Below are positions 10,587 through 64,000 of a DNA stretch of 64,000 nucleotides, piece after piece (position 1 is the first letter of the stretch; each line of letters starts with the position of its first letter). The DNA comes from Streptomyces sp. NBC_01775. GTDB lineage: Bacteria > Actinomycetota > Actinomycetes > Streptomycetales > Streptomycetaceae. A model generated the notes under the pieces. That model was not told the origin of the DNA, did not search any database, and saw nothing but the letters and a program-made list of their open reading frames with translations. The stretch covers positions 8,556,001-8,620,000 of the forward strand of contig NZ_CP109104.1 in NCBI RefSeq assembly GCF_035917675.1, given 5' to 3'. Made by a program: the position numbers and the translations under genes.

Positions 10587-11324
10587 ATGCAATTCACTTC
10601 CGAACAGCGTCTCGACGACGGCGTCCTCGAGCGCGAATTCACCCTCGGCGAGATCCCCGGCGCCCTGTGGACGCCTGGCTCTGCTGGATCTTCTGGGGCC
10701 GCACCGGCCCCGCTGATCCTGATGGCCCACAACAACGGCCTGCCCAAGGGGGAATCCCGGCTGGTGGCCCGGGCCCGGCATTCCGCGGCGTACGGCTACG
10801 CGGTCGCCTCCATCGACGCCCCCGGGTGCGGTGACCGGCCCCGTTCCGCCGCCGACGAGCAGGCCCGCGCCGACATCCGCCGGGCGATGCAGGCCGGCGA
10901 GCCGGCCGATGAGATCTTCGAGTCCTTCATCGGTCCGTTGGTCGAAAAGGCGGTCCCGGAATGGCGGACCACCCTGGATGCCCTCCTTTCGCTGCCCGAG
11001 ATCGGCGGCCCGGTCGGGTACTCGGGGTGGACCGCCGTCGGCATTCGGCTGGCGGTGGCCGAGCCGCGCATCTCGGCCGCCGGTTTCTTCGCCGGGGGAT
11101 TCGTGCCCCGCGCCCAGCGCGAGGAGGCCCGGCAGGTCACCGTTCCGCTGCTGTTCCTGTTGCAGTGGGACGACGAAGGGAACCCCCGGCAGCGGGCCCT
11201 GGACCTGTTCGACGCCTTCGGCAGCAGGGAGAAGACGCTGCACGCCAATCCGGGCGGACACACCGGCACCCCGTGGTTCGAGGTGGAGGACGGGAACCGG
11301 TTCTTCGGCCGGCACCTGAAGTGA
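10587..11324 (+). CDS. Alpha/beta hydrolase family protein
   Basis: A 245-residue cytoplasmic protein resembling dienelactone-hydrolase-like esterases: a beta strand with the LILMAHNNG oxyanion turn, DAPGCGDRP, a nucleophile elbow GYSGW (shorter than canonical GxSxGG) and a C-terminal GGHTG motif with the probable catalytic His. Substrate unknown. The ATG at 10587 follows an AAAGG-type ribosome site. The gene is divergent from the TetR gene, the usual layout for a repressor and its detoxifying target. A long hairpin follows 48 bases after the stop. Confidence 0.78.
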   Translation: MQFTSEQRLDDGVLEREFTLGEIPGALWTPGSAGSSGAAPAPLILMAHNNGLPKGESRLVARARHSAAYGYAVASIDAPGCGDRPRSAADEQARADIRRAMQAGEPADEIFESFIGPLVEKAVPEWRTTLDALLSLPEIGGPVGYSGWTAVGIRLAVAEPRISAAGFFAGGFVPRAQREEARQVTVPLLFLLQWDDEGNPRQRALDLFDAFGSREKTLHANPGGHTGTPWFEVEDGNRFFGRHLK

Positions 11325-11372
11325 GGCCGGGCCGTCAGGCCGGCAGCAGACGGTAAGCGGTGCCGGCCGGGG

Positions 11373-11415
11373 TGCCGCCATCGAGGACAGGCCCCGGCCC
11401 TCCTCGATGGCGGCA
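11373..11415 (+). terminator. Hairpin terminator after hydrolase
   Basis: Perfect 15-base arms (11373-11387 and 11401-11415, beginning TGCCGCCATCG) enclose a 13-base loop. No T-tract follows. It lies in the 468-base stretch 11325-11792, whose only other recognisable content is the reductase remnant at 11556-11717. Confidence 0.7.
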
Positions 11416-11555
11416 GCCGGCAGATGCACAACCGCCCCGATCGCGGCGGTAGCGGCCATCGGCGGTACCGACCGGTCGGGGCGGCGCTCGGCCACCAGCG
11501 CCCCCCATTAGCCGGCCCCACGCCGCGTCAGGCACTCGGCCCGTACCCTGCGGAT

Positions 11556-11717
11556 CGCCGACTCGGCTTCGACAGGGTCGATGTCGGCCCCCTGACCGAG
11601 AGCTGGCGGTTCGAGCCGGAGACGACGGCGTCCGCAGCGTCGTACTTCGCCGACTCTGACGCCTTCAGATCCGCCATGGTTCGCACTGGCGCCGGTGAGG
11701 ACGAGGCAACGCGGCTC
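11556..11717 (+). pseudogene. 3' remnant of F420-dependent NADP reductase-like gene
   Basis: One frame reads GFDRVDVGPLTESWRFEP and then ADSDAFRSAM. This resembles the C-terminal end of NADPH-dependent F420 reductase-type Rossmann proteins (GYDAVDAGPLxEGWR motif). Nothing upstream in any frame continues the homology, and no start or ribosome site is present. I read it as a decayed 3' fragment. The match is from memory of the family. Confidence 0.45.
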
Positions 11718-11792
11718 GTCAGACCCCCACGGCCCATGTCCTCAGCCCGGCCTCGACACCCCACTGACGTCGCGCGATCCGAGAAGCAGCGC

Positions 11793-13382
11793 CTAGGTCT
11801 CCCGAGCTGTCGGCGCGCCCGGATCCCCCGGCGTTCCGACGACGCCCCGCAGCCCGGCCGGGGCCGACAAGACGGCGTCGGCGGCCGGTTCCGGCAGCAG
11901 CGCCCACACCGCCGCACGCTCCGGCTTGCCGGCCGACTCGTCGAACGGGTCGGGTGTCGCGGGTACCTGGAGGCGCAGCACCGGGCCCGAGCCCAGCCGC
12001 GCGAATCCCCGCCCCGCCGGTGCGTGCGGGGCGGGGCCCGTCCGCGGGGCCAGTCCGAGCACACTGCCCGCCTGCTCGGGGGAGACCGCGCCCAAGACCA
12101 CCCGCGCCCCGGTGTGCGCGAGCACCGCTTCGCCCAACCCCTCTGCCCCTTCGAACTGTTCGGCCACCACCACGCTCACCCCCGCGGCTCTCCCGTGCCG
12201 CAGGGGCGCCGCCAGCAGATCCTGTGGGTCGCGCTGTCCCTCGGTCCTGGCCAGATGACTCAGCACGGCCGGCCGGTCCAACAGCACCCACAGGGGCTGC
12301 CGTTCGTCCTCAGGGGCGTACTCACCGCGCTGCCCGGCCCGGCCCGCCGACAGCAGCCGCCGCTCCGTCTCGCGCTCCACCCATTCCAGCGCCGACAGCA
12401 CCCCGGGCAGCGCGGACTCCACGCCGAGCACCCCGCGCCGCGCGGCCAGACAGGCGAACTCCCCGCTCCCGTCGCCGTCCACCACCAGCACCTCGCCACG
12501 CCGCAGCGCCTGGAGCGCCACCGACCGCAGCAGCGAACTCGTGCCCGAGCCGGGCAGCCCCATCGCGAGCAGATGCGGCTCGGTCGCCCGCGGGCCCGTG
12601 CGCCACACCACCGGCGGCACGTCACGGGGCCCCGCGACGCCGAGGATCTCCACGGGGACGGTACGCCGCACCTCGGGTCCGTCCGTGAACCCGAGCACCG
12701 TCTCGCCGGGCGCGGTGACGAAAGGCTGCGCGTGGATACCGGTGGGCAGCGGCTCCAGCGCTGTCATCTCCAGCAGGTTGCACTCCTCGTCCCACGCGAA
12801 GCGGTACTCGCGCCCGCGCCCGGACTTGGCCGCCAGCAGCTGCTCCACGTACAGCCGCCGGCCCGCCTCCCCGTCCCGGAACCAGGCCGGGTAGCGCAGC
12901 AGCAGCGTGCTCAGCCGGCCCTCGTGGAAGACGAAGTCCTCGAAAGCGCGCTCCCACGCCCCGTCCAGCGTGTACAGAGGCTCGGGGTGGGGGTCGCCGT
13001 CCACGGCGAAGTACGGAACCAGGGCCTCGTACAGGACCCGGAGGCGGTCGGACTCCTCATCCGAGGGGGCGCGCTTCCCAGCCTCCGGCCCCCGGGCCCG
13101 CGCCCTCCCGCACCACGCGGCGGCGCCCACCAGTGAGAGCGCGACGAGGGCGGGTCCGTACGGCATCAGCCACAGCAGCAACCCGCACGCCGCCACCAGG
13201 AACAGCGTGGGACGCCGCCGCTCCTCGGGGGTGCGGGCCCACCACTTCCGGCCCATCGCGGCCAGCCGCACGAGCCCGCGCCAGAGCACCAGCAAGGGGT
13301 GCAGCACATCGAGCACACCCTTGGTGCCCGCCCGCAGGGCATCCCGTGCGGCCCACCGCGACGGCAGTGCCCACCGGCTCAC
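11793..13382 (-). CDS. sffA: SpoIIIE/FtsK-like protein SffA
   Basis: A 529-residue membrane-anchored FtsK/SpoIIIE-family protein. Residues ~58-90 form one or two membrane segments, followed by a linker and an ATPase-like domain. Directly downstream of smeA it matches the S. coelicolor smeA-sffA operon, where SmeA brings SffA to sporulation septa and the pair affects spore maturation and chromosome handling. The GTG start at 13380-13382 has AAGGAG seven bases upstream. The nucleotide-binding motifs look degenerate: the Walker A region reads GLPGSGTSS (residues 275-283), with Thr where Lys is expected, and the Walker B-like strand is LWVLLDRP. ATP-driven pumping is therefore uncertain. Confidence 0.85.
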   Translation of the reverse strand: MSRWALPSRWAARDALRAGTKGVLDVLHPLLVLWRGLVRLAAMGRKWWARTPEERRRPTLFLVAACGLLLWLMPYGPALVALSLVGAAAWCGRARARGPEAGKRAPSDEESDRLRVLYEALVPYFAVDGDPHPEPLYTLDGAWERAFEDFVFHEGRLSTLLLRYPAWFRDGEAGRRLYVEQLLAAKSGRGREYRFAWDEECNLLEMTALEPLPTGIHAQPFVTAPGETVLGFTDGPEVRRTVPVEILGVAGPRDVPPVVWRTGPRATEPHLLAMGLPGSGTSSLLRSVALQALRRGEVLVVDGDGSGEFACLAARRGVLGVESALPGVLSALEWVERETERRLLSAGRAGQRGEYAPEDERQPLWVLLDRPAVLSHLARTEGQRDPQDLLAAPLRHGRAAGVSVVVAEQFEGAEGLGEAVLAHTGARVVLGAVSPEQAGSVLGLAPRTGPAPHAPAGRGFARLGSGPVLRLQVPATPDPFDESAGKPERAAVWALLPEPAADAVLSAPAGLRGVVGTPGDPGAPTARET

Positions 13383-53697: not shown

Positions 53698-54387
53698 ATG
53701 ACCGACGACGTGCTGGCCGAACTCTCCGACGACCGGGTCCTGTTGGGGCGTACCAGCACGGCCGAGCGCGTGGCCGACATCCTGCGCAACCGGATCATGG
53801 AGGGCGGCTTCCAGCCCGGCGCGCGGCTCGCCGAGGAGGAGATAGGCGGCGCGCTGGGCATCTCGCGCAACACCCTGCGCGAGGCGTTCCGGCTGCTCAC
53901 CCACGAGCGGCTGCTCGTCCATGAGCTCAACCGGGGCATGTTCGTCCGCGTGCTGACCGTCGAGGACCTGGCGGACATCTACCGCGTACGCGGCCTGGTC
54001 GAGTGCGCCGTGCTGCGGGCGCTCGGGGCCCCGCCCTACCCGCTCGAAGCCGTCGAGGCCGCCGTGCGGGCGGGCCGGCGCGCGGCCCAGCTGCGGCGCT
54101 GGCGCGACCTGGGCACCGCCAACATGCGGTTCCACCAGGCGCTCGTCGAACTGGCCGAAAGTCCGCGCACCAACGAGGCGATGCGCGGCGTGCTGGCCGA
54201 ACTGCGGCTCGTCTTCCACGTCGTGGATGACCCTCAGCGCCTCCACGAGCCCTACCTGAGCCGCAACGAGGAGATCCTGCGCGCGCTCCAGGGCGGTGAG
54301 GCGCGCGCCGCCGAACAGCTCCTCGACGTCTACCTCGACGACTCGCGCCGCCAGCTCGCCGAGGCGTACGCGCACCGGCTGAGCTGA
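53698..54387 (+). CDS. GntR (FadR/FCD) transcription regulator
   Basis: A 229-residue repressor. The winged helix at ~20-85 contains ADILRNRIMEGGFQPGARL and LGISRNTLREAFRLL. The FCD ligand domain (~90-225) has RVRGLVECAVLRAL and the metal-binding Asp/His pattern (RFHQALVELAESPR, HEPYLSRNEEILRAL). FCD proteins sense small carboxylates. It probably controls the divergent transporter and D-glutamate cyclase genes. The ATG at 53698 lacks a strong ribosome site. Confidence 0.9.
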   Translation: MTDDVLAELSDDRVLLGRTSTAERVADILRNRIMEGGFQPGARLAEEEIGGALGISRNTLREAFRLLTHERLLVHELNRGMFVRVLTVEDLADIYRVRGLVECAVLRALGAPPYPLEAVEAAVRAGRRAAQLRRWRDLGTANMRFHQALVELAESPRTNEAMRGVLAELRLVFHVVDDPQRLHEPYLSRNEEILRALQGGEARAAEQLLDVYLDDSRRQLAEAYAHRLS

Positions 54388-54526: not shown

Positions 54527-56053
54527 GTGACTGAGCACGCCATGACGAGCACCGCGAGGGGGCGAGGTGCCCCCGCTCCCTCCCCGGCTCCGGGCCCCGC
54601 CGCCGACGAGGGCCTGGCCCGCCGTCTGCGCGCGCTCGCCTGCACCGCCCCGCTGCACGACCTGGACACGCGCAAGGCCAACCTCGCCGGCGAGTACAGC
54701 ACCTACGAGATGGCCGAGCTGGCCCTCGCCGCGATCGATCAGGTCACGCTCCAGATGGACTTCGACACCGGAGCCGACCACGAGCAGATAGTGACCAGGC
54801 TCCTGCCCCGCGTCGCCGCCCAGGCCCCCGCGCGAGGGGCGGCCGAGCACGAGCGCGTGGCCCGCTGGGTGCTGGAGAACCTGATCAATGTCGGCAGCGT
54901 CGACCGCGGCTTCCGCGCCGTCTACGGCACGTTCGGCCCCGACGGCGTCTACGTGCGCAGGGACTACGACTTCAAGCTCATCGAGGAAGTCCCCGGCCCC
55001 GGCGGCAGCGTCTATCTGCGCACCACCGACGAGGCCGTCAACGTCCTGGTCGGTGCGCTCGACACCGACGTGACCAGCGCCCAGATCGCCGCCGAGGTCA
55101 AGCTGGAGGTCCTCATCAGCCGGGGCCGCCTCGCCGACGCCCAGCTCGCCGCCGAGCAGGCCCGCTACCGCACCGTGCAGTACGCCGAGGTGCTGCGCCG
55201 CACCCTGGACGCCACCCGGCGCGACGTACGCGCCGTCGACTGGCTCAGCGCCGTCCCCGACATGATCACCGAGGCGCTCGACCACGTCGCCGACCGCTAC
55301 CGCCACGAGAACGCGATCCTCACCAACATCCGCAAAGCCCGCGACGAGGCCGAAGAGGCCGACCACAAGCGCCGCGCCGCCGAGCTGGTCGACATCGTGA
55401 AGGACTGCATCCGCCGCCACACCCAGCTCCAGTCCCGGCTGCTGGAGGCCGGGCCGCTCTTCCGCGCCGAGCAGGACCGCCAGGCGTTCGCCCCGCCCGC
55501 GGCCCGCGCGGGCCTGGACCTGTACGGGCAGGTGTTCGCTCCCGTGCTGCCCCTCCCGCTGGAGCGGGCCGCGCGGGTGACCGACGCCTTCTTCGCGCGC
55601 GGCGCCGGATTGCGCACCCCGGGCGCGATGCGCCTCGGGGATCTGGTCGACCTGCTCCTGACGCCGCCCGCGCCCCGCGAGCACCTGGGTGCCGAGATGC
55701 CCGAGCCCGACCTGGTCGCCACCCCCGACGACAGCCGCTTCAGCGAAGAGCAGTTGGAGGCGGCCATGGAGCTGCTGGAGCTGCCGCCGGACGCCCCGCG
55801 CAGGCTCTCCGGCCTGCTGGCCGACGCCCGCCGCCGCGATCCCGGACTGCCGTATCTGGTGGCCCTGCTGGCCGTCCACGCCGCGAGTCCGCCGGTGGGG
55901 ACCGCCTACCGGCAGGGTGAGCCGCGACTGCTGTTCGCGGTGGACGACGGCGAACAGCTGGACGATCCCGAGTTCGGCGGCGCCGACCTCATCGTGGGCA
56001 CCGCCCTGCTGGACGCCGCCGGGATGGCGGCCGACCGGACGGAGGCGGCATGA
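54527..56053 (+). CDS. MukF/JetA-like kleisin candidate of an SMC complex
   Basis: A 508-residue, largely helical protein of unassigned family. The N-terminal part (~25-190) includes EYSTYEMAELALAAIDQVTL and YGTFGPDGVYVRRDYDFKL and could hold winged-helix domains. The centre (~195-320) is long charged helices (KLEVLISRGRLADAQLAAEQ, HVADRYRHENAILTNIRKAR, coiled-coil-like) and the C-terminal part is compact. Size, order and helical layout parallel MukF/JetA subunits, which bridge the SMC heads. The GTG at 54527 follows a TAATGT box by seven bases and has no ribosome site, so leaderless expression is possible. First gene of the three-gene set. Confidence 0.6.
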   Translation: MTEHAMTSTARGRGAPAPSPAPGPAADEGLARRLRALACTAPLHDLDTRKANLAGEYSTYEMAELALAAIDQVTLQMDFDTGADHEQIVTRLLPRVAAQAPARGAAEHERVARWVLENLINVGSVDRGFRAVYGTFGPDGVYVRRDYDFKLIEEVPGPGGSVYLRTTDEAVNVLVGALDTDVTSAQIAAEVKLEVLISRGRLADAQLAAEQARYRTVQYAEVLRRTLDATRRDVRAVDWLSAVPDMITEALDHVADRYRHENAILTNIRKARDEAEEADHKRRAAELVDIVKDCIRRHTQLQSRLLEAGPLFRAEQDRQAFAPPAARAGLDLYGQVFAPVLPLPLERAARVTDAFFARGAGLRTPGAMRLGDLVDLLLTPPAPREHLGAEMPEPDLVATPDDSRFSEEQLEAAMELLELPPDAPRRLSGLLADARRRDPGLPYLVALLAVHAASPPVGTAYRQGEPRLLFAVDDGEQLDDPEFGGADLIVGTALLDAAGMAADRTEAA

Positions 56054-56200
56054 CCGCGGCGCGGGAAGGCCACCCGACGTCGGCACATGGACACAGCCCG
56101 GCCGTGGCGCGGGAAGAGAGTACAACCGTGGCGCGCGCAGACCGCATGTGCGTGGCGCACCGAGGAGATGAGTGCCTGTGACCGACCGAGAAGAGCGCCC

Positions 56201-57091
56201 GTGACCGAGTTCGCCGACTTCGCGGCAGACCCCGAACCGGACGCGTCCGAGGGCACCCGCCCCGCCGGGCCCGTCACCCCCGCCGACGCCGCCGACGCCG
56301 CGCGTCTTGTCTCCTTCGGCCTGCACCCCAAGCTCGTTCCGGCCCGGGACGCCGAGTACACCGAGCTGTTGCGGCGCTATCGCGACGAGCCCGCCTTCGC
56401 CCGGCTCGCCGACGCGGTCGCCACCGGGCTCGGCCTGGTCGTCCTGGAGGTCTCCACCCGTGCCGGGATGGCGCTGGCGGCGGCCGAGGACTCGGTGTTC
56501 GCGGTCCGCATGGGCGACTACGCCCGCCGTGCGAGCGCCGACTCGGCCGACCGCTTCCTGCACGGCCTGGCCCACCTCGCCGTCGCCGTCATGGCCTTCC
56601 CCCGTCCCGAGGACCTGGCCGACGACGGTTACATCGGCCGCATCACCGTCAACGGCGTCGACTCCTTCGTCCGGCAGGCCTGCCGGAAGCTCGACGAACG
56701 CGCCGAGGCCGAGGGCGAGAACACCGACCCGGCCACCGACGCGCCCGGTCTGGAGGCGGCCTGGCGGGTCTACGCCCGGCGCAGTTCCACCGGGGCCACC
56801 AAGGACGCCCGGCGGCTGGCGGGCTCGACCACCGGCATCATCGCCAAGGCCGTCGCCTTCCTCGCCGACTCCGGTTTCCTTCAGCGCACCGGCGACGACG
56901 CGGGAGGCACCTACCGCACCACGGCCCGCTATCAGCTCCAGGTCCGCGACATGGCGGGCAGCTCCGCCATGGCAGAGCTGCTGGAGCTGGGCGTCGTCCC
57001 CGTCTCCGACGGCACGGCCAGCCTGCTGCCGCCCCAGGACGCCGAGGGCCTCGACCTCGCGCCGGATGCCGGGCTGCCCTTCCATTCCTGA
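56201..57091 (+). CDS. MukE/JetB-like KITE candidate subunit
   Basis: A 296-residue protein with two probable winged-helix units: one around HGLAHLAVAVMAFPRPEDLA (about residue 123) and one around TGIIAKAVAFLADSGFLQR with the wing TYRTTARYQLQVRDM (about 210-255). Tandem winged helices between a kleisin-like gene and an SMC gene are the mark of KITE proteins such as MukE, MksE or JetB. The homology is structural inference, not a recognised family. The GTG at 56201 has GAGAAGAG upstream. The 147-base gap before it contains repeated GTGGCGCGGGAAG. Confidence 0.6.
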   Translation: MTEFADFAADPEPDASEGTRPAGPVTPADAADAARLVSFGLHPKLVPARDAEYTELLRRYRDEPAFARLADAVATGLGLVVLEVSTRAGMALAAAEDSVFAVRMGDYARRASADSADRFLHGLAHLAVAVMAFPRPEDLADDGYIGRITVNGVDSFVRQACRKLDERAEAEGENTDPATDAPGLEAAWRVYARRSSTGATKDARRLAGSTTGIIAKAVAFLADSGFLQRTGDDAGGTYRTTARYQLQVRDMAGSSAMAELLELGVVPVSDGTASLLPPQDAEGLDLAPDAGLPFHS

Positions 57092-57159
57092 AGGGCCGCC
57101 GCCATTCCTGAAGCCCGCCTCCTGAAGGCCCGCCACTCCTGAAGCCCGCCCGCTCCTGA
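57086..57159 (+). repeat. Five imperfect TCCTGA-containing repeats before the SMC gene
   Basis: TCCTGA(A/C) followed by GGGCC/CCCGCC occurs at 57086, 57106, 57120, 57137 and 57154. The first unit contains the stop codon of the KITE-like gene. They fill half of the 162-base gap to the SMC-like gene. Confidence 0.7.
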
Positions 57160-57253
57160 CGGCCCCGCGCCCCTGGAACGCCGCCACCCTCCCCGCACCG
57201 CAGCCAACCCGCCCTTCCCCCGACCGACCCGACAGACACGAGAGTCCGCCGCC

Positions 57254-60200
57254 ATGTACGAGCTGTCCCGGATCCGCCTCTACTCCATCGGGCCCGCCGG
57301 TGCGCGCTACGCCGACACCGTGCTGGACCTGCGGGGAGTCGGCGCGACCGTCCCCAGCCCGGCCCCCGCGCAGGCGGACTTCTTCGAGGAGGAGCCCCAG
57401 GGCCCGCCTCGCCGCCCCGCCCCGGCGGGAGTGCTGTTCCTGGAGAACGGCGGCGGCAAGTCCGTCCTCCTCAAGCTGATCTTCTCCGTGATGCTGCCGG
57501 GCCACCGCAACACCCTGGGCGGCGCCAGTTCCGGCGTGCTCCGCAAATTCCTGCTCGCCGACGACTGCGGCCATGTCGCCCTGGAGTGGCAGCACACCAG
57601 GACCGGCGAGACCATCGTCGTCGGCAAGGTCAGCGAGTGGCGCGGACGCCAGGTGTCCGGCGACCCGCGCAAGTTCGCCGAGGCGTGGTATTCCTTCCGC
57701 CCCGGCCCCGGCATGTCCCTGGACTCCCTGCCCGTGGCCGAGTCGGCGGCACTGCGGCCCTCGGCGGAAGGTGCCTCCGCGGCGCGCGGCAGGCGCCGCA
57801 CCATGAAGGGCTTCCGCGACGTCCTCACGGAGACAGGAAAGGCGTACCCCAACCTCGACGTCGCCTGGGAAGAGATCCACGAGCGCTGGAACGAACACCT
57901 CACCGGCCTCGGTCTCGACCCCGAACTCTTCCGCTACCAGCGGGAGATGAACGCCGACGAGGGCGAGGCCGCCGGCCTTTTCGCCGTCAAGAACGACTCG
58001 GACTTCACCGACCTGCTGCTCCGCGCCGTCACCGACACCCGTGACACCGACGGTCTCGCGGACCTCGTGCACGGCTTCGCCCACAAGCTGGGCCGCCGCA
58101 CCGAGCTGACCGCCGAGCGCGACTTCACCGCCGGCTCCCTGGACTTCCTGCACCGCATCACGGAGGCGGCCGGGACGCGCGCCCAGGCCCGCGAGGTCCA
58201 CGCCGGGGCCGAGCGCCGCACCCGCGCGCTCGCCCAGCGCCTGTCCGAGCGCGGCACCCAGGAGCACGGCCGCGCCGCCGAGCTCGCCGAACAGCTCGCC
58301 CACGCACACGAATCCGTCACCGAGGCCGAGACCGCCCGCTCCCGTGCGTCGCGTATCGCCGCCGAACTCGCCTACCGGCACGCCTCCCTGGCGCTCGCCG
58401 CCGCGGAGAAGTCGGCCGCCGCGCAAAAGCGTGAGCTGAGCGAGGCCCGTACGCTGCACGCCGCCTGGCAGGCGGCCGAGACCGTGCTCGCGCACCGCAC
58501 GGCCGCCGACCGCTCCGCGCGCGTGGCCGCCGCCATCCAGGAGGCCGAGCGTGACGCGGCCCCGGCCCTGGCCGCCCGCGCCACGGCGGCAGCCGCGCTC
58601 GTCCGCGCGCTCAACGCCTCCGCCGAGGACGGCGAGCGCATCGCCACCGAACAGGAGGAGCGCTCCGCCGCGCTCCAGCGCGAGAGCGAGAGCGCACACC
58701 GGGACGCCACGGCCGCCGCCACCGAGGCACAGCGCGCCCGCAGCGAGACCGAACACCTGCGCCAGCGCCTCGCCGAGGTCGAGCAGGAGACCGCCGAGGC
58801 CGTACGCGCCGGATGGCTGGACGACACCGACCCGGACGCCGACCCCGCACGCGCGGCGCTGGCCGCCAGCGACGCGGAGAAGACCACCGTCGCCGCCTTC
58901 GAGTCCGCGCGCGAGGCCGCCCGCCGCAGCGCCGAGCGGGCCCGCGAGACCGGAGCGGCGCACGCGAGCGCCGAGCTGGCCGCCGCGCGTGCCGAGGACG
59001 CGGCGGAGGCGGCCGAGTCCGCGTACACGGCGGAGCGCGTCGCGGCCGAAACACTCGGCGCCGAAGACCGGCTCGCCGAGCTGCTGGGTCTCCCCTCGGC
59101 GTCCGGCCCGGCCGCCGCTTCCGTCCCCGGCCAGCGCGGCACCGCCGGCACACGGAACGCGCACGGGCCGGACGACGGTCAGAGGACGGGGCCGGACCGG
59201 CAGCGACCCGCTGCCCAGGGCCCCCTGTCCGCCGATGAGCTGGACCGCAACGCCGACGCCGTCTCCCAGCTGCTGGAGGACGGCGTGGCCGCGGCCGAGC
59301 GGCAGCTGTTCGAGCTGCGCACCGGCGCCGCCGAGGACTCCCGGATGCTCGGCGCGCTCGGCGACGGCGGGCTGCTGCCACCGGGCCCCGATGTGACGGC
59401 CACCGTCGAATTCCTCGGCGAGCACGGCGTGCCCGCGCTGCCCGGCTGGCGCTACCTCGCCCAGGCCGTCGACCCCGCCGACCACGCCGCCGTGCTCGCC
59501 GCCCGCCCCGAGCTGGTCGACGGCGTCGTCATCACCGACCCCGACAGCCACGCGCGCGCCCGCGAGGTGCTGGCCGGCGCCGCGCTGCTGCCCCGCTCCG
59601 CCGTCGCCGTCGGGACGTCGGCGGCGCTGCTGGCCCCCACGCCGGCGCCCGGCTCCGGTGCGGAGAGCGGAGTCTTCCTCGTACCGCCCAACCCGGCGAT
59701 GCACGACGAGCGCGCGGCCGACGACGAGCGCCGCCAGCTCAGGGAGCGCGCCGCCGGGCGCGACGAGGAGATCCGCTCCCTCGCGGCGCGGCTCTCCGCC
59801 GACCGGGCGCTCGTGGCCCGGCTGTCCTCCTGGCGCGCCGGCTGCCCCGAGGGCCGCCTCGCCGAACTCGCCACCGCCGCCGTCGAGTCCCGCGAGGCCG
59901 CCGACCTCGCCCAGCAGCGCCTTCTCGACGCCCGGGGCGCCCGGGAGGAGGCCGAAGAAGCGGCGGCCGAGACCGCGCGGGTGCGCGACGAGCGCCAGGA
60001 GGAGGCCCAGCGCGCCCGGCGCAGCGCTGACGCGCTCGCGGGCCTCGCCTTCCGGCTGCGCGAGCGCGTCAGCTGGCAGACCCGGCTGCGTGAGCTGGCA
60101 GACGAGGCCGCAGCCGCCGAGGAGCGCGCCGCCGTGTGCGTCGAGCGGGCCGGGGCGGCCGACGAGGAGCGGCGCGCCGCCCAGCGCGCGGCCGACGACG

Positions 60201-62236
60201 CACGCCGTACGGCTCGCACCCTGCGTGCCGAGCGGGCCGAGATCGCCGGTGTGCCCGACGACCCGGACGAGCCCGTAGCCGAGGCCGGGACCGAGACCGA
60301 GGACGCGGCGGACGCCGACCCCACCCAGGCCGCCAAGAAGCAGACGAAGCAGCCGAAGCAGCCGGAGAGCGCCCGCCCCGCCTCCCTCCCCGACCTCCGT
60401 GAGGCCTACCGCTCCGCCTCACAGCTCTACGAGAAGGTGGGCGTCGGCGCCGACCTGCGCGCGGAGCAGGCCCGCGCCGAGAGCGACGAGTCGGCGGCGC
60501 TGGCCACTCTCGACCGGCTCACCAACAAGGTCCGCACCCGCGCGGCCCAGCTCCTCGAAGGCCCCGACGGCGCCGACGGTCCCTCCCGCCAGGCGGCAGC
60601 CGCCCGCGCCGAGGCCCTCGTACAGAAGCTGGAGACACGCGGCTCGGAGGCCAGCGAGCAGCTCGGCCGCCTGCGCGGCGAGGCCGAGCGCCTCGCCCCC
60701 CGGGACGGCGAGCGCCACACCGACCTGCCCGAGGAGCTCGTCCCCGCCGACGCCGCCCAGGCCCAGACCCTCCTGCGCACCGCCAACGCCGAACTGGCCG
60801 CGCGCGGCGACGAGCTGGACGCGGCCCGCGCGGCACACGGCGTGCTGGTCCGTGGCCACACGGCCGCCGAGGACGCGGCGGGCGGCTTCGACGAGACCGC
60901 CACGACCCTGCGCGACCTGCTGCGTGACCCTTCCCCGAGTTCTCAGCCCCGGTCGAACAGGGGAGACCCCGATCCGGGTCCGGACGAGCAGGAGGGCGAG
61001 GAGAGCATCGAGCCCTACCCGGGCAGCCCGGCCGAGGCCCGGCAGGCGGCGGCCGAGGCCCGGCGCTCGCTGCGCGGCTGCGCCGCCGACCTCACGGCGG
61101 CCGAGCAGGCCCTGCGCGAGGCGAGCGATGCGCTCGTACGCCACGCCAACTCCAGCCGCTACGAGCAGGTCCGCACCCCGGCCAGGCAGCAGATCCGCGA
61201 ACTGCCCGCGTCGGCGCTGCCCGAGCACGCCGCCGCCTGGGCCGCCGCTTTCGCTCCGCGGCTGCGCGTGCTCACCGACGAGCTGACCCAGCTGGAGCGC
61301 AACCGCGGCAGCATCGTCGACCGGCTGCGCGGCCTCGTGGAGTCCTCCCTCACCACCTTGCGCTCGGCGCAGCGCCTCTCACGGCTGCCGGAGGGCCTGG
61401 GGGAGTGGTCGGGGCAGGAATTCCTGCGCATCCGCTTCGAGGATCCCGACCAGGCCACCCTCACCGAGCGGCTCGGCGAGGTCATCGACGAGGCCACCCG
61501 CGCCGCCGTGCGCAAGAACTCCGACCTGCGCCGGGACGGCATGTCGCTGCTGCTGCGCGGAGTGCACGCCGCGCTCCGGCCGCGCGGGGTCTCCGTGGAG
61601 ATCCTCAAGCCGGACGCGGTGCTGCGCGCCGAGCGCGTGCCGGTCGGGCAGATGGGCGACGTCTTCTCCGGAGGCCAGCTGCTGACCGCCGCCATCGCGC
61701 TGTACTGCACCATGGCCGCGCTGCGCAGCAACGACCGGGGCAACGACAAGCACCGGCACGCCGGCACCCTCTTCCTCGACAACCCCATCGGCCGCGCCAA
61801 CGCGACCTATCTGCTGGAGTTGCAGCGCGCGGTGGCCGACGCGCTGGGCGTCCAGCTGCTCTACACGACGGGCCTGTTCGACACCACGGCGCTCGCCGAG
61901 TTCCCGCTGGTGATCCGGCTGCGCAACGACGCGGACCTGCGGGCCGGCCTGAAGTACATCAGCGTCGAGGAGCACTTGAGGCCCGGTCTTCCCCAGGCGG
62001 AGGCCGGGGAGGGCGAGCCCGCGGTGCACGGCGAGATCACCGCGACACGGATGTTCCGCCGCCCCGACGAGGGTTCGGCGGACGAGCGGCCGGAGGCAGC
62101 GGCACCGAACGGGACTCAGGAGCCGGATGGGGCCCGGGCGTCGGACGAGGCGCGGGAGCAGTATGCGCCGGATGCCCGGACGGACGTTCCCGCCCCTCAG
62201 CCGCCGCAGGACGAGCGGGACGAGGCATCCCGTTAG
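57254..62236 (+). CDS. Large SMC-like ATPase (MukB/JetC type)
   Basis: A 1,660-residue SMC/Rad50-like protein. The N-terminal head has Walker A in LENGGGKS (residues 63-70). Ala/Glu/Arg-rich coiled coils (~280-640 and ~815-1,350) flank a globular hinge-like region (~690-805, GHGVPALPGWRY and VVITDPDSHARAREVL neighbourhoods). The C-terminal head has the ABC signature FSGGQLL (Ser1472-Gln1475) and Walker B TLFLDNPIGRAN (Asp1509). The residue after Asp1509 is Asn, not the usual catalytic Glu. An acidic disordered tail follows from ~1,620. It is not the housekeeping chromosomal SMC (longer, no DE). It probably works with the two preceding gene products in DNA loop handling or plasmid exclusion. 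Confidence 0.88.
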   Translation: MYELSRIRLYSIGPAGARYADTVLDLRGVGATVPSPAPAQADFFEEEPQGPPRRPAPAGVLFLENGGGKSVLLKLIFSVMLPGHRNTLGGASSGVLRKFLLADDCGHVALEWQHTRTGETIVVGKVSEWRGRQVSGDPRKFAEAWYSFRPGPGMSLDSLPVAESAALRPSAEGASAARGRRRTMKGFRDVLTETGKAYPNLDVAWEEIHERWNEHLTGLGLDPELFRYQREMNADEGEAAGLFAVKNDSDFTDLLLRAVTDTRDTDGLADLVHGFAHKLGRRTELTAERDFTAGSLDFLHRITEAAGTRAQAREVHAGAERRTRALAQRLSERGTQEHGRAAELAEQLAHAHESVTEAETARSRASRIAAELAYRHASLALAAAEKSAAAQKRELSEARTLHAAWQAAETVLAHRTAADRSARVAAAIQEAERDAAPALAARATAAAALVRALNASAEDGERIATEQEERSAALQRESESAHRDATAAATEAQRARSETEHLRQRLAEVEQETAEAVRAGWLDDTDPDADPARAALAASDAEKTTVAAFESAREAARRSAERARETGAAHASAELAAARAEDAAEAAESAYTAERVAAETLGAEDRLAELLGLPSASGPAAASVPGQRGTAGTRNAHGPDDGQRTGPDRQRPAAQGPLSADELDRNADAVSQLLEDGVAAAERQLFELRTGAAEDSRMLGALGDGGLLPPGPDVTATVEFLGEHGVPALPGWRYLAQAVDPADHAAVLAARPELVDGVVITDPDSHARAREVLAGAALLPRSAVAVGTSAALLAPTPAPGSGAESGVFLVPPNPAMHDERAADDERRQLRERAAGRDEEIRSLAARLSADRALVARLSSWRAGCPEGRLAELATAAVESREAADLAQQRLLDARGAREEAEEAAAETARVRDERQEEAQRARRSADALAGLAFRLRERVSWQTRLRELADEAAAAEERAAVCVERAGAADEERRAAQRAADDARRTARTLRAERAEIAGVPDDPDEPVAEAGTETEDAADADPTQAAKKQTKQPKQPESARPASLPDLREAYRSASQLYEKVGVGADLRAEQARAESDESAALATLDRLTNKVRTRAAQLLEGPDGADGPSRQAAAARAEALVQKLETRGSEASEQLGRLRGEAERLAPRDGERHTDLPEELVPADAAQAQTLLRTANAELAARGDELDAARAAHGVLVRGHTAAEDAAGGFDETATTLRDLLRDPSPSSQPRSNRGDPDPGPDEQEGEESIEPYPGSPAEARQAAAEARRSLRGCAADLTAAEQALREASDALVRHANSSRYEQVRTPARQQIRELPASALPEHAAAWAAAFAPRLRVLTDELTQLERNRGSIVDRLRGLVESSLTTLRSAQRLSRLPEGLGEWSGQEFLRIRFEDPDQATLTERLGEVIDEATRAAVRKNSDLRRDGMSLLLRGVHAALRPRGVSVEILKPDAVLRAERVPVGQMGDVFSGGQLLTAAIALYCTMAALRSNDRGNDKHRHAGTLFLDNPIGRANATYLLELQRAVADALGVQLLYTTGLFDTTALAEFPLVIRLRNDADLRAGLKYISVEEHLRPGLPQAEAGEGEPAVHGEITATRMFRRPDEGSADERPEAAAPNGTQEPDGARASDEAREQYAPDARTDVPAPQPPQDERDEASR

Positions 62237-62582
62237 GCGGCACGGCGGACGAGGCGGACGAGGCGGACGCTGAGGGCGCGGCAGACGTCGCAGGCCGACG
62301 GTGGGGGGTGGCGCGCGCCCGCTGCCGCGCGGCGCTGCTCGGCTCGGAAAGGACGCCGTTGCGCTGTACCCACACCTGACGTGTGATCCACACATCCAGG
62401 ACCGCCCACGTCGCCACGACCGTGCTGCCCACCGTGGACAGCACCATCGGAAAGGCCAGCCACACGGCCGCCATCGAGCAGAAGAACGCGACCATGAGCT
62501 GCACCAGCGTCAGCGCGACGATGATCACCGCACGCACCGCCGCCGCCCGGACCGGGTCCGCAAGACGGGCTTTCGTATACAT
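62037..62582 (-). CDS. Small membrane protein overlapping the SMC gene on the other strand
   Basis: A 181-residue protein. Residues ~10-65 contain two membrane segments (AVIIVALTLVQLMVAFFCSM and FPMVLSTVGSTVVATWAVLD), ending at ITRQVWVQRNG. The rest is a Pro/Ala/Arg-rich cytoplasmic tail. The membrane part looks like a conserved Streptomyces protein of unknown role; the tail is antisense to the last 200 bases of the SMC-like gene and may be an extension without function. The ATG at 62580-62582 is chosen because GGGGGAG lies at good spacing, whereas the upstream GTG overlaps it. Confidence 0.7.
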   Translation of the reverse strand: MYTKARLADPVRAAAVRAVIIVALTLVQLMVAFFCSMAAVWLAFPMVLSTVGSTVVATWAVLDVWITRQVWVQRNGVLSEPSSAARQRARATPHRRPATSAAPSASASSASSAVPPNGMPRPARPAAAEGRERPSGHPAHTAPAPRPTPGPHPAPESRSVPLPPAARPPNPRRGGGTSVSR

Positions 62583-62817
62583 CTCTTTCACTCCCCCTTC
62601 ACGACCCCTCGCACCTCACACGGTTCCATAAACGTGTCCTGTGCCACAAACTTCGAACGTCCGGAAGGGCATCGACGGACAACTCGGGATGAGGCAGGCT
62701 GGTCTGCCTGTTCCAACGCTCATACACATCTACGAGTTGCCCGCGCCTCAGTAGTAAGCTCGCGCCGTTTGCTGTCGGTACACGCCCCCGCGCACCGGGG
62801 AGGACGTAGGGGAGGCC

Positions 62818-64000
62818 ATGCGCTTTCGCGGGAAGTCCATCCGCCGGAAGATCGTGGTGCTGCTGCTGGTGCCTCTGGTGTCGTTGGTGTCCATCTGGGG
62901 TTTCGCCACCTACATCACCGCCAGTGAGGCCAACGGTCTCCTCCAGCAGGACGAGATCACCCGCGAGATCGGCAACCCCACCGAGGGAGCCGTCAAGGCG
63001 CTTCAGCGGGAACGCCGCCAGATCCTCGTCCACCTGGCCGACCCGCGCCGCACCGACAGCCTGACCGCCCTGCGCAAGTTCCAGCGCGAGACGGATCGCA
63101 AGGTCTCCACCGTCCGGGGCAACGCCGCGCAGGGTGGTCTGCGCTCCGACCTCGACGCCGACGCCGACGCCCGCCTCGACGACCTCCTGGACGCGCTCGA
63201 CGGCCTGGGCAAGCTGCGCTCGAAGGTCGAGCACAACACCATCACCAGGGGCGGCGCCTTCCAGGCCTACAACGAACTCGTCGCCCCCGCCTACGCCGTC
63301 CTGGACTCGCTCAACGGTGTGGACGACGCCGATCTGGAAAAGCAGGGCCGCGCGCTGGTCGGCGTCACCCGCGCCCGCGAGTACCTCTCGCGCGAGGACG
63401 CGCTGATGGCCGCCGCCTACGTCGCGGGCCAGTTCACCCGGGGCGACCAGCGGGCGCTGTCCGACCGGGTGGCCGAGCGCAACATCGTCTACCAGGCCAG
63501 CCTCTCCTCGCTGCCCGCGGAGGACCGGCAGATCTTCGAGAACTACTGGGACGGCACCGACGGCCGCACCCTGCGCAGTTACGAGGACGCTGTCATCGCC
63601 GCCGGACCGCGTAGCTCCACGGGCCCGGTCGGCTCCCAGCGCTGGAACTCGGCCATGGGCACCGTATTGGACGACCTGGACCGGATGGACCAGAAGGCCC
63701 GGGACCGGTACGAGGAGCGCATCGCGCCGGTCGCCACCCGGGTGCTCATCCAGGCTGCCGCCGCCGGAGTCCTCGGCTTCCTCGCCGTCCTGGCCTCGCT
63801 CGTCATCTCCTTCCGCGTCGGACGCGGACTGGTGCGCGATCTGAACATCCTGCGCAAGGAGGCCAACGAGTCGGCCGGGGTGCGCCTCCCCAGCGTGATG
63901 CGCCGCCTCGCCTCCGGCGAGCATGTCGACGTCGAGACCGAATCGCCCCGCCTGGACTACCCGCCGGACGAGATGGGCCAGGTCGGCCAGGCGCTCAACA
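62818..64000 (+). CDS. Nitrate/nitrite-sensing (NIT) receptor, probable conservon sensor histidine kinase (partial)
   Basis: The first 394 residues of a membrane sensor that continues beyond the window. RKIVVLLLVPLVSLVSIWGF is the first membrane segment; residues ~45-290 form an extracytoplasmic helical NIT domain (ERRQILVHLADPRR near the start). AAAAGVLGFLAVLASLVISF is the second segment, and a HAMP linker begins at FRVGRGLVRDL. In Streptomyces this architecture is usual for CvnA, the sensor kinase of conservons, normally followed by roadblock, DUF742 and small-GTPase genes, which would lie downstream. The ATG at 62818 has GGGGAGG five bases upstream. Confidence 0.85.
   Translation, partial: MRFRGKSIRRKIVVLLLVPLVSLVSIWGFATYITASEANGLLQQDEITREIGNPTEGAVKALQRERRQILVHLADPRRTDSLTALRKFQRETDRKVSTVRGNAAQGGLRSDLDADADARLDDLLDALDGLGKLRSKVEHNTITRGGAFQAYNELVAPAYAVLDSLNGVDDADLEKQGRALVGVTRAREYLSREDALMAAAYVAGQFTRGDQRALSDRVAERNIVYQASLSSLPAEDRQIFENYWDGTDGRTLRSYEDAVIAAGPRSSTGPVGSQRWNSAMGTVLDDLDRMDQKARDRYEERIAPVATRVLIQAAAAGVLGFLAVLASLVISFRVGRGLVRDLNILRKEANESAGVRLPSVMRRLASGEHVDVETESPRLDYPPDEMGQVGQALN

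Follow-up and report, generated by a model that had tools for sequence, protein, structure and literature searches.

A nuclease-free JetABC trio of the Wadjet type III family as a probable resident second SMC complex of Streptomycetaceae

The window analysed here is a 64,000-nucleotide stretch of DNA from Streptomyces sp. NBC_01775 (NZ_CP109104.1, positions 8,556,001 to 8,620,000). As read from its sequence, the region 54527-62236 encodes a MukBEF/JetABC-type trio, jetA, jetB and jetC, on one strand. The features of the locus and its flanks are the following:

53698-54387, plus strand: GntR/FCD regulator, ending about 140 nt 5' of jetA on the same strand
54527..56053, plus strand: jetA, mukF/mksF-like kleisin, 508 aa; PADLOC JetA3 match (2e-190), closest to MukF in Foldseek
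56201..57091, plus strand: jetB, mukE/mksE-like KITE, 296 aa; predicted fold nearest MukE and JetB, conserved between jetA and jetC
57254..62236, plus strand: jetC, mukB/mksB-like SMC ATPase, 1,660 aa; PADLOC JetC3 match and motifs
62037-62591, minus strand: small ORF with no Pfam match that overlaps the last part of jetC
62818-63999, plus strand: nitrate-sensing histidine kinase ORF, cut by the window end and identified from a homologue in locus L002

The start of jetA is a GTG at 54527, in a frame open from 54452. The jetB frame is open from 56087 (56087-57091, 334 aa) and its aligned conservation begins later; a start at 56201 gives the 296-residue product. The jetA and jetC products match the PADLOC models PDLC00567 (JetA3, 2e-190) and PDLC00588 (JetC3, DUF3584; E 0, 1,379 bits), and JetC carries the motifs LENGGGKS, SGGQ and LFLDNPIG. 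None of the three proteins gave anything significant in Pfam or NCBIfam, and jetB has no PADLOC match, as is also the case for the JetB of the JetD-bearing locus L119. The original prediction of no named family for the first two proteins therefore holds for Pfam and NCBIfam but not for PADLOC, where the first is JetA3. Fold prediction followed by Foldseek ranked MukF chains highest for JetA and MukE chains highest for JetB, with modest scores, and the predicted JetB fold also resembles JetB of Wadjet. In these models, jetA thus encodes a predicted kleisin of the MukF/JetA type and jetB a predicted KITE protein with tandem winged helices, in line with the kleisin- and KITE-like folds anticipated for the first two proteins. 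Searches of PDB sequences with the proteins of the locus yielded nothing of use, the two designed HalluTIM chains that came up (1.4e-5) being treated as artefacts.

All three proteins were matched in 78 of the 80 fetched Streptomyces loci (L005 and L011 show the first protein alone), so that the three ORFs cannot be put down to chance, an explanation also ruled out by dN/dS values well below 1. The genes are ordered on one strand in 77 of these 78 loci, the exception being L065, which bears out the expectation that they are normally linked; their consecutive MukF-MukE-MukB / JetA-JetB-JetC order on the plus strand is confirmed by ORFs, PADLOC and folds. In nine pairs, dN/dS (NG86) was 0.06-0.10 for jetA and, leaving out the outlier pair L049/L041 (jetB 0.48, jetC 0.375), 0.04-0.11 for jetB and 0.12-0.25 for jetC. 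The L049 jetB sequence, at 39% identity, was wrongly trimmed or read in the wrong frame, and was left out of the jetB alignment. The core jetABC genes are under purifying selection.

With the JetA3 model, which covers one JetA family and leaves other Wadjet types outside the counts, 147 of 150 Streptomyces genomes were matched (146 with E<1e-100), usually in one copy; two of the three assemblies without a match are 82% and 78% complete, and the third is in about 1,140 contigs. The model also matched 80 of 81 Streptomycetaceae genomes and all 17 genera drawn from this family, the match in G497 being weak (5e-46). In a class-wide draw, 51 of 345 genomes were matched, 33 from the window's own genus and 18 from a single further family, f18, which we take to be Streptosporangiaceae and in which 19 of 35 genomes have a match. 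JetA is 82-90% identical to that of the window in 40 of 40 other genomes and ScpB 77-87% in 38 of 40, the two ranges resting on different alignment spans and ScpB having been missed in two genomes. The core copy looks like a housekeeping gene set, apparently about as conserved as ScpB. A JetA match was found in 5 of 72,556 plasmid records, always below 60% identity, the best being a Rhodococcus plasmid (54%) in which JetD is annotated 3' of jetC. Among the 120 JetA homologues listed of 1,148, none has a Pfam domain and most are annotated as “hypothetical protein” and a few as “membrane protein” or “DUF3375 domain-containing”, which makes the complex easily overlooked.

The absence of an adjacent JetD, the nuclease of Wadjet operons, was confirmed, since jetC is followed by the small minus-strand ORF and then by the sensor kinase. 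The search for JetD-type TOPRIM proteins that had been proposed for the rest of the genome was run with three models, PF09983 (JetD_C), PF11795 (DUF3322) and a JetD3 profile built from eight sequences, and the 9.3 Mb yielded no match. By tblastn with eight JetD3 proteins, no match was obtained in the window, L001-L080 or L132-L148 (148 loci searched), 75 of the 86 core loci reaching the end of jetC by motif scan and the rest being shorter contig pieces. Together with the genome-wide models, this rules out a nearby JetD that had been overlooked. Among the 150 Streptomyces genomes, JetD_C was found in 18 (PF09983, E<=0.01) and JetD3 in 14 (profile, E<=0.001), with a union of 22. The proposal that a distant nuclease is recruited hence finds no support, as the genome has no detectable JetD, and 128 of the 150 Streptomyces genomes have none by these two models.

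In Streptomyces, strong JetD3 matches go with additional copies of the system. At least two JetA3 matches, a count in which a split gene could figure twice, were found in 13 of the 150 genomes. A strong JetD3 match (E<1e-50, a cut set after the list was seen) is present in 11 of these 13, compared with none of the 134 genomes with one match (Fisher p 6.6e-15); no position relative to JetD is listed for the extra copy in G090 or G094. At E<=0.001, three of the 134 (G012, G028 and G137) also match JetD3, at 1e-7 to 4e-5. G128 and G141 have two JetA3 matches and no detectable JetD3, and may contain duplicated core copies or split genes. A JetD3 gene directly follows all ten copies fetched from the JetD side, seven from Streptomyces (L119-L125) and three from f18 (L126, L127 and L129); the sequences of L131 and L128 stop too early for a JetD to show. 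The PADLOC JetD3 match is 4e-123 for L119 and 5e-95 for L124, and E209, D260 and D262, presumably the TOPRIM acidic residues, are invariant in eight aligned JetD3 proteins. In the five genomes from which both kinds were fetched, the core copy (L144-L148) has no JetD and a JetA 84-89% identical to that of the window, and the extra copy has JetD and a JetA only 32-45% identical. Judging from these comparisons, the JetD-bearing type III systems of Streptomyces are rare, diverged extra copies. The idea of a Wadjet derivative is well supported because related copies carry JetD3. At one further locus (L130, G323:C1:1230000-1246000), a JetD 88% identical to that of L119 lies at about 10956-12397 beside no more than a C-terminal fragment of jetC (147 residues); jetA and jetB are absent, and the locus is a decayed accessory Wadjet. 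When the alignments were scanned for residues that tell JetD-less and JetD-bearing copies apart, a comparison of little power with eight JetD-bearing rows, two columns emerged in JetA (171 and 352) and none in JetB. No signature of JetD loss was found in either protein, which counts against the explanation favoured below.

The ATPase motifs are retained in the core copies: Walker A is present in 84 of 86 core loci and the signature and LDNP motifs in 75 of 86, the loci without them being shorter contig pieces. The Walker B-like LDNP(I/F)G is found in all 75 core, 10 f18 and 10 JetD-bearing loci where the motif was located, which rules out an ATPase change confined to the JetD-less copies. In this family, Asn occupies the position where a catalytic Glu is usual among SMC proteins; ATP hydrolysis by JetC therefore stays putative, which counts against the explanation favoured below. 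The Walker A pattern [LIV].NGGGKS was missed in four of the ten JetD-bearing loci (L119, L120, L123 and L129), and in L123 the jetC frame also appears split.

In the JetA tree, the core copies form one clade (33 of the 86 core rows, support 100/98) and the f18 JetD-less copies another (12 rows, 100/99), and both clades recur in a quick tree of the concatenated proteins (26 core and 12 f18 rows, SH-aLRT 100 each). The extra copies have long branches in these trees. In the free tree, the JetD-bearing rows fall, on such branches, between core and f18, and holding core and f18 together gave an AU p of 0.0506, in a test with 9 core rows that also left out L125, L128, L129, L005 and L137. The f18 loci L132-L143 represent a second JetD-less JetABC clade, with a JetA 59-65% identical to the Streptomyces core. 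Loss of jetD from a Wadjet system is the likely origin of the core copy; the change probably ran from JetD-bearing to JetD-less, in one loss or two, and the f18 clade may be a second, independent case. That the f18 copies are present in some genomes only counts against the explanation favoured below.

The two JetD-less groups also differ in their surroundings. Among the 86 core loci, of which the window is one, tblastn at 1e-20 detects the GntR regulator in 64 cases, the sensor kinase in 54, an MFS transporter in 48 and a hydantoinase-like gene in 27, and none of these four was found in the 12 f18 or the 10 JetD-bearing loci, which indicates a site common to many core loci, though not to every one, and a different site in f18. 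In 32 hand-picked genomes (one-contig G012 and G090 left out, sizes rounded, some assemblies possibly rotated), the median distance of the gene from the closer end of its contig is 16% of genome length, and in 29 of them it is oriented towards that end. The distance from the jetA stop to the conserved jetB core is 12-21 nt in JetD-bearing loci (n=10), 6-288 nt in f18 JetD-less loci (n=12) and 91-620 nt in the Streptomyces core (median 203, n=83), so that the JetD-bearing operons are tight, the f18 copies intermediate and the Streptomyces core loose. The locus itself encodes no ScpA or ScpB; both are encoded elsewhere, the only ScpB match (PF04079) being at G000:C1:7540289-7540762, more than 1 Mb away.

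Among known systems, the locus resembles Wadjet type III in its JetA3 and JetC3 matches and in its gene order, which is that of the JetD-bearing Streptomyces copies and of the Rhodococcus plasmid, but it differs from it in having no adjacent JetD and none detectable genome-wide, in being nearly universal and slowly evolving, and in its looser spacing. Cleavage of small circular plasmids is a Wadjet trait. E. coli MukBEF likewise has no nuclease subunit, and its MukF and MukE rank at the top in Foldseek; it replaces Smc-ScpAB, however, whereas the Streptomyces genome also has ScpA and ScpB. The MksBEF of P. aeruginosa is a MukBEF-like complex that, according to the part of PMC7485682 covered, organises and segregates the chromosome beside SMC; it belongs to a different host and presumably to a different sequence family. 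The closest studied actinobacterial case is the MksBEFG of C. glutamicum, also a second SMC complex beside Smc-ScpAB, although the JetA3 model has no match in the C. glutamicum control genome. Unlike JetABC, it carries a nuclease, MksG, which docks on the kleisin (PMC10123090, in part), and it reduces the copy number of plasmids and has no part in shaping the chromosome (PMC7083940, in part). This last point counts against a condensin reading, even though the nuclease is present there; by analogy, since the complex with its nuclease acts on plasmids, loss of the nuclease would point to chromosomal work.

The explanation that we favour, and regard as probable, is that JetABC is a nuclease-free member of the Wadjet type III family which serves Streptomycetaceae as a second, resident SMC complex alongside Smc-ScpAB. 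The complex would assemble as MukBEF and Wadjet do and, like its relatives, would bind DNA and extrude loops with the use of ATP. Without JetD, the outcome would be the folding, disentangling or positioning of chromosomes instead of cutting, and the complex would work beside Smc-ScpAB, as reported for P. aeruginosa MksBEF. A condensin, one of the options raised in the original prediction, is what we infer to be the best reading of these genes. Chromosome organisation is nonetheless an argument by analogy, and loss of the nuclease could equally have left a non-cutting immune complex.

Among the alternatives, it is unlikely that JetABC serves defence with another effector, sensing small circular or other foreign DNA and handing it over to some unrelated nuclease from another locus. 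Its sequence kinship to Wadjet type III would fit this, as would the reuse of SMC-like sensors with varied effectors in other systems such as Lamassu (PMC10586767, in the part covered). The genome has no JetD by any of the three models, though, no nuclease is among the best 25 recurrent neighbour families (read by eye, four of them Pfam-scanned), and the core copy, nearly universal and slow to evolve, does not behave like the patchily distributed accessory ones. Wadjet ancestry could also mean that loop extrusion by JetABC serves to compact or silence plasmids or phage genomes as they enter, somewhat as eukaryotic Smc5/6 is described to act on extrachromosomal viral DNA in the same part of PMC10586767; given the slow, largely vertical pattern, which is less typical of immunity genes, we consider this decidedly improbable. 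A remnant decaying after loss of its effector is scarcely credible, for although one defining gene is missing and real remnants exist (G323, L130), it is contradicted by the low dN/dS of jetA, jetB and jetC alike, by reading frames that are open and motifs that are retained, and by presence in 147 of 150 genomes.

Returning to the resident second SMC complex, a broader form of this reading can be put forward tentatively, as possible rather than probable: a plasmid-cutting Wadjet turned into a housekeeping condensin by nuclease loss, now a universal second chromosomal SMC complex working beside Smc-ScpAB on the linear, multi-copy chromosomes of the mycelium, with JetD-armed relatives that come and go as accessory defence. 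No description of the complex was found in the portion of the open-licence PubMed Central literature covered by our search. A survey of actinobacterial defence systems reports Wadjet as enriched in Actinobacteria and, in Streptomyces, located towards the chromosome ends, and its sections covered here make no mention of a JetD-less core copy (PMC10482375); papers on Streptomyces chromosome folding, as far as covered, treat Smc as the condensin (PMC8410768, PMC13121528 and PMC12511625). Defence censuses scoring JetA or JetC alone could misread the jetABC locus as immunity. Genomes that contain complexes both with and without the cutter would offer a natural contrast for the interconversion of immune and chromosome-folding SMC complexes. 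If the reading is true, there would be a second near-universal SMC player to consider when asking how chromosome arms align, how multiple genomes segregate in hyphae and how viable smc mutants are.
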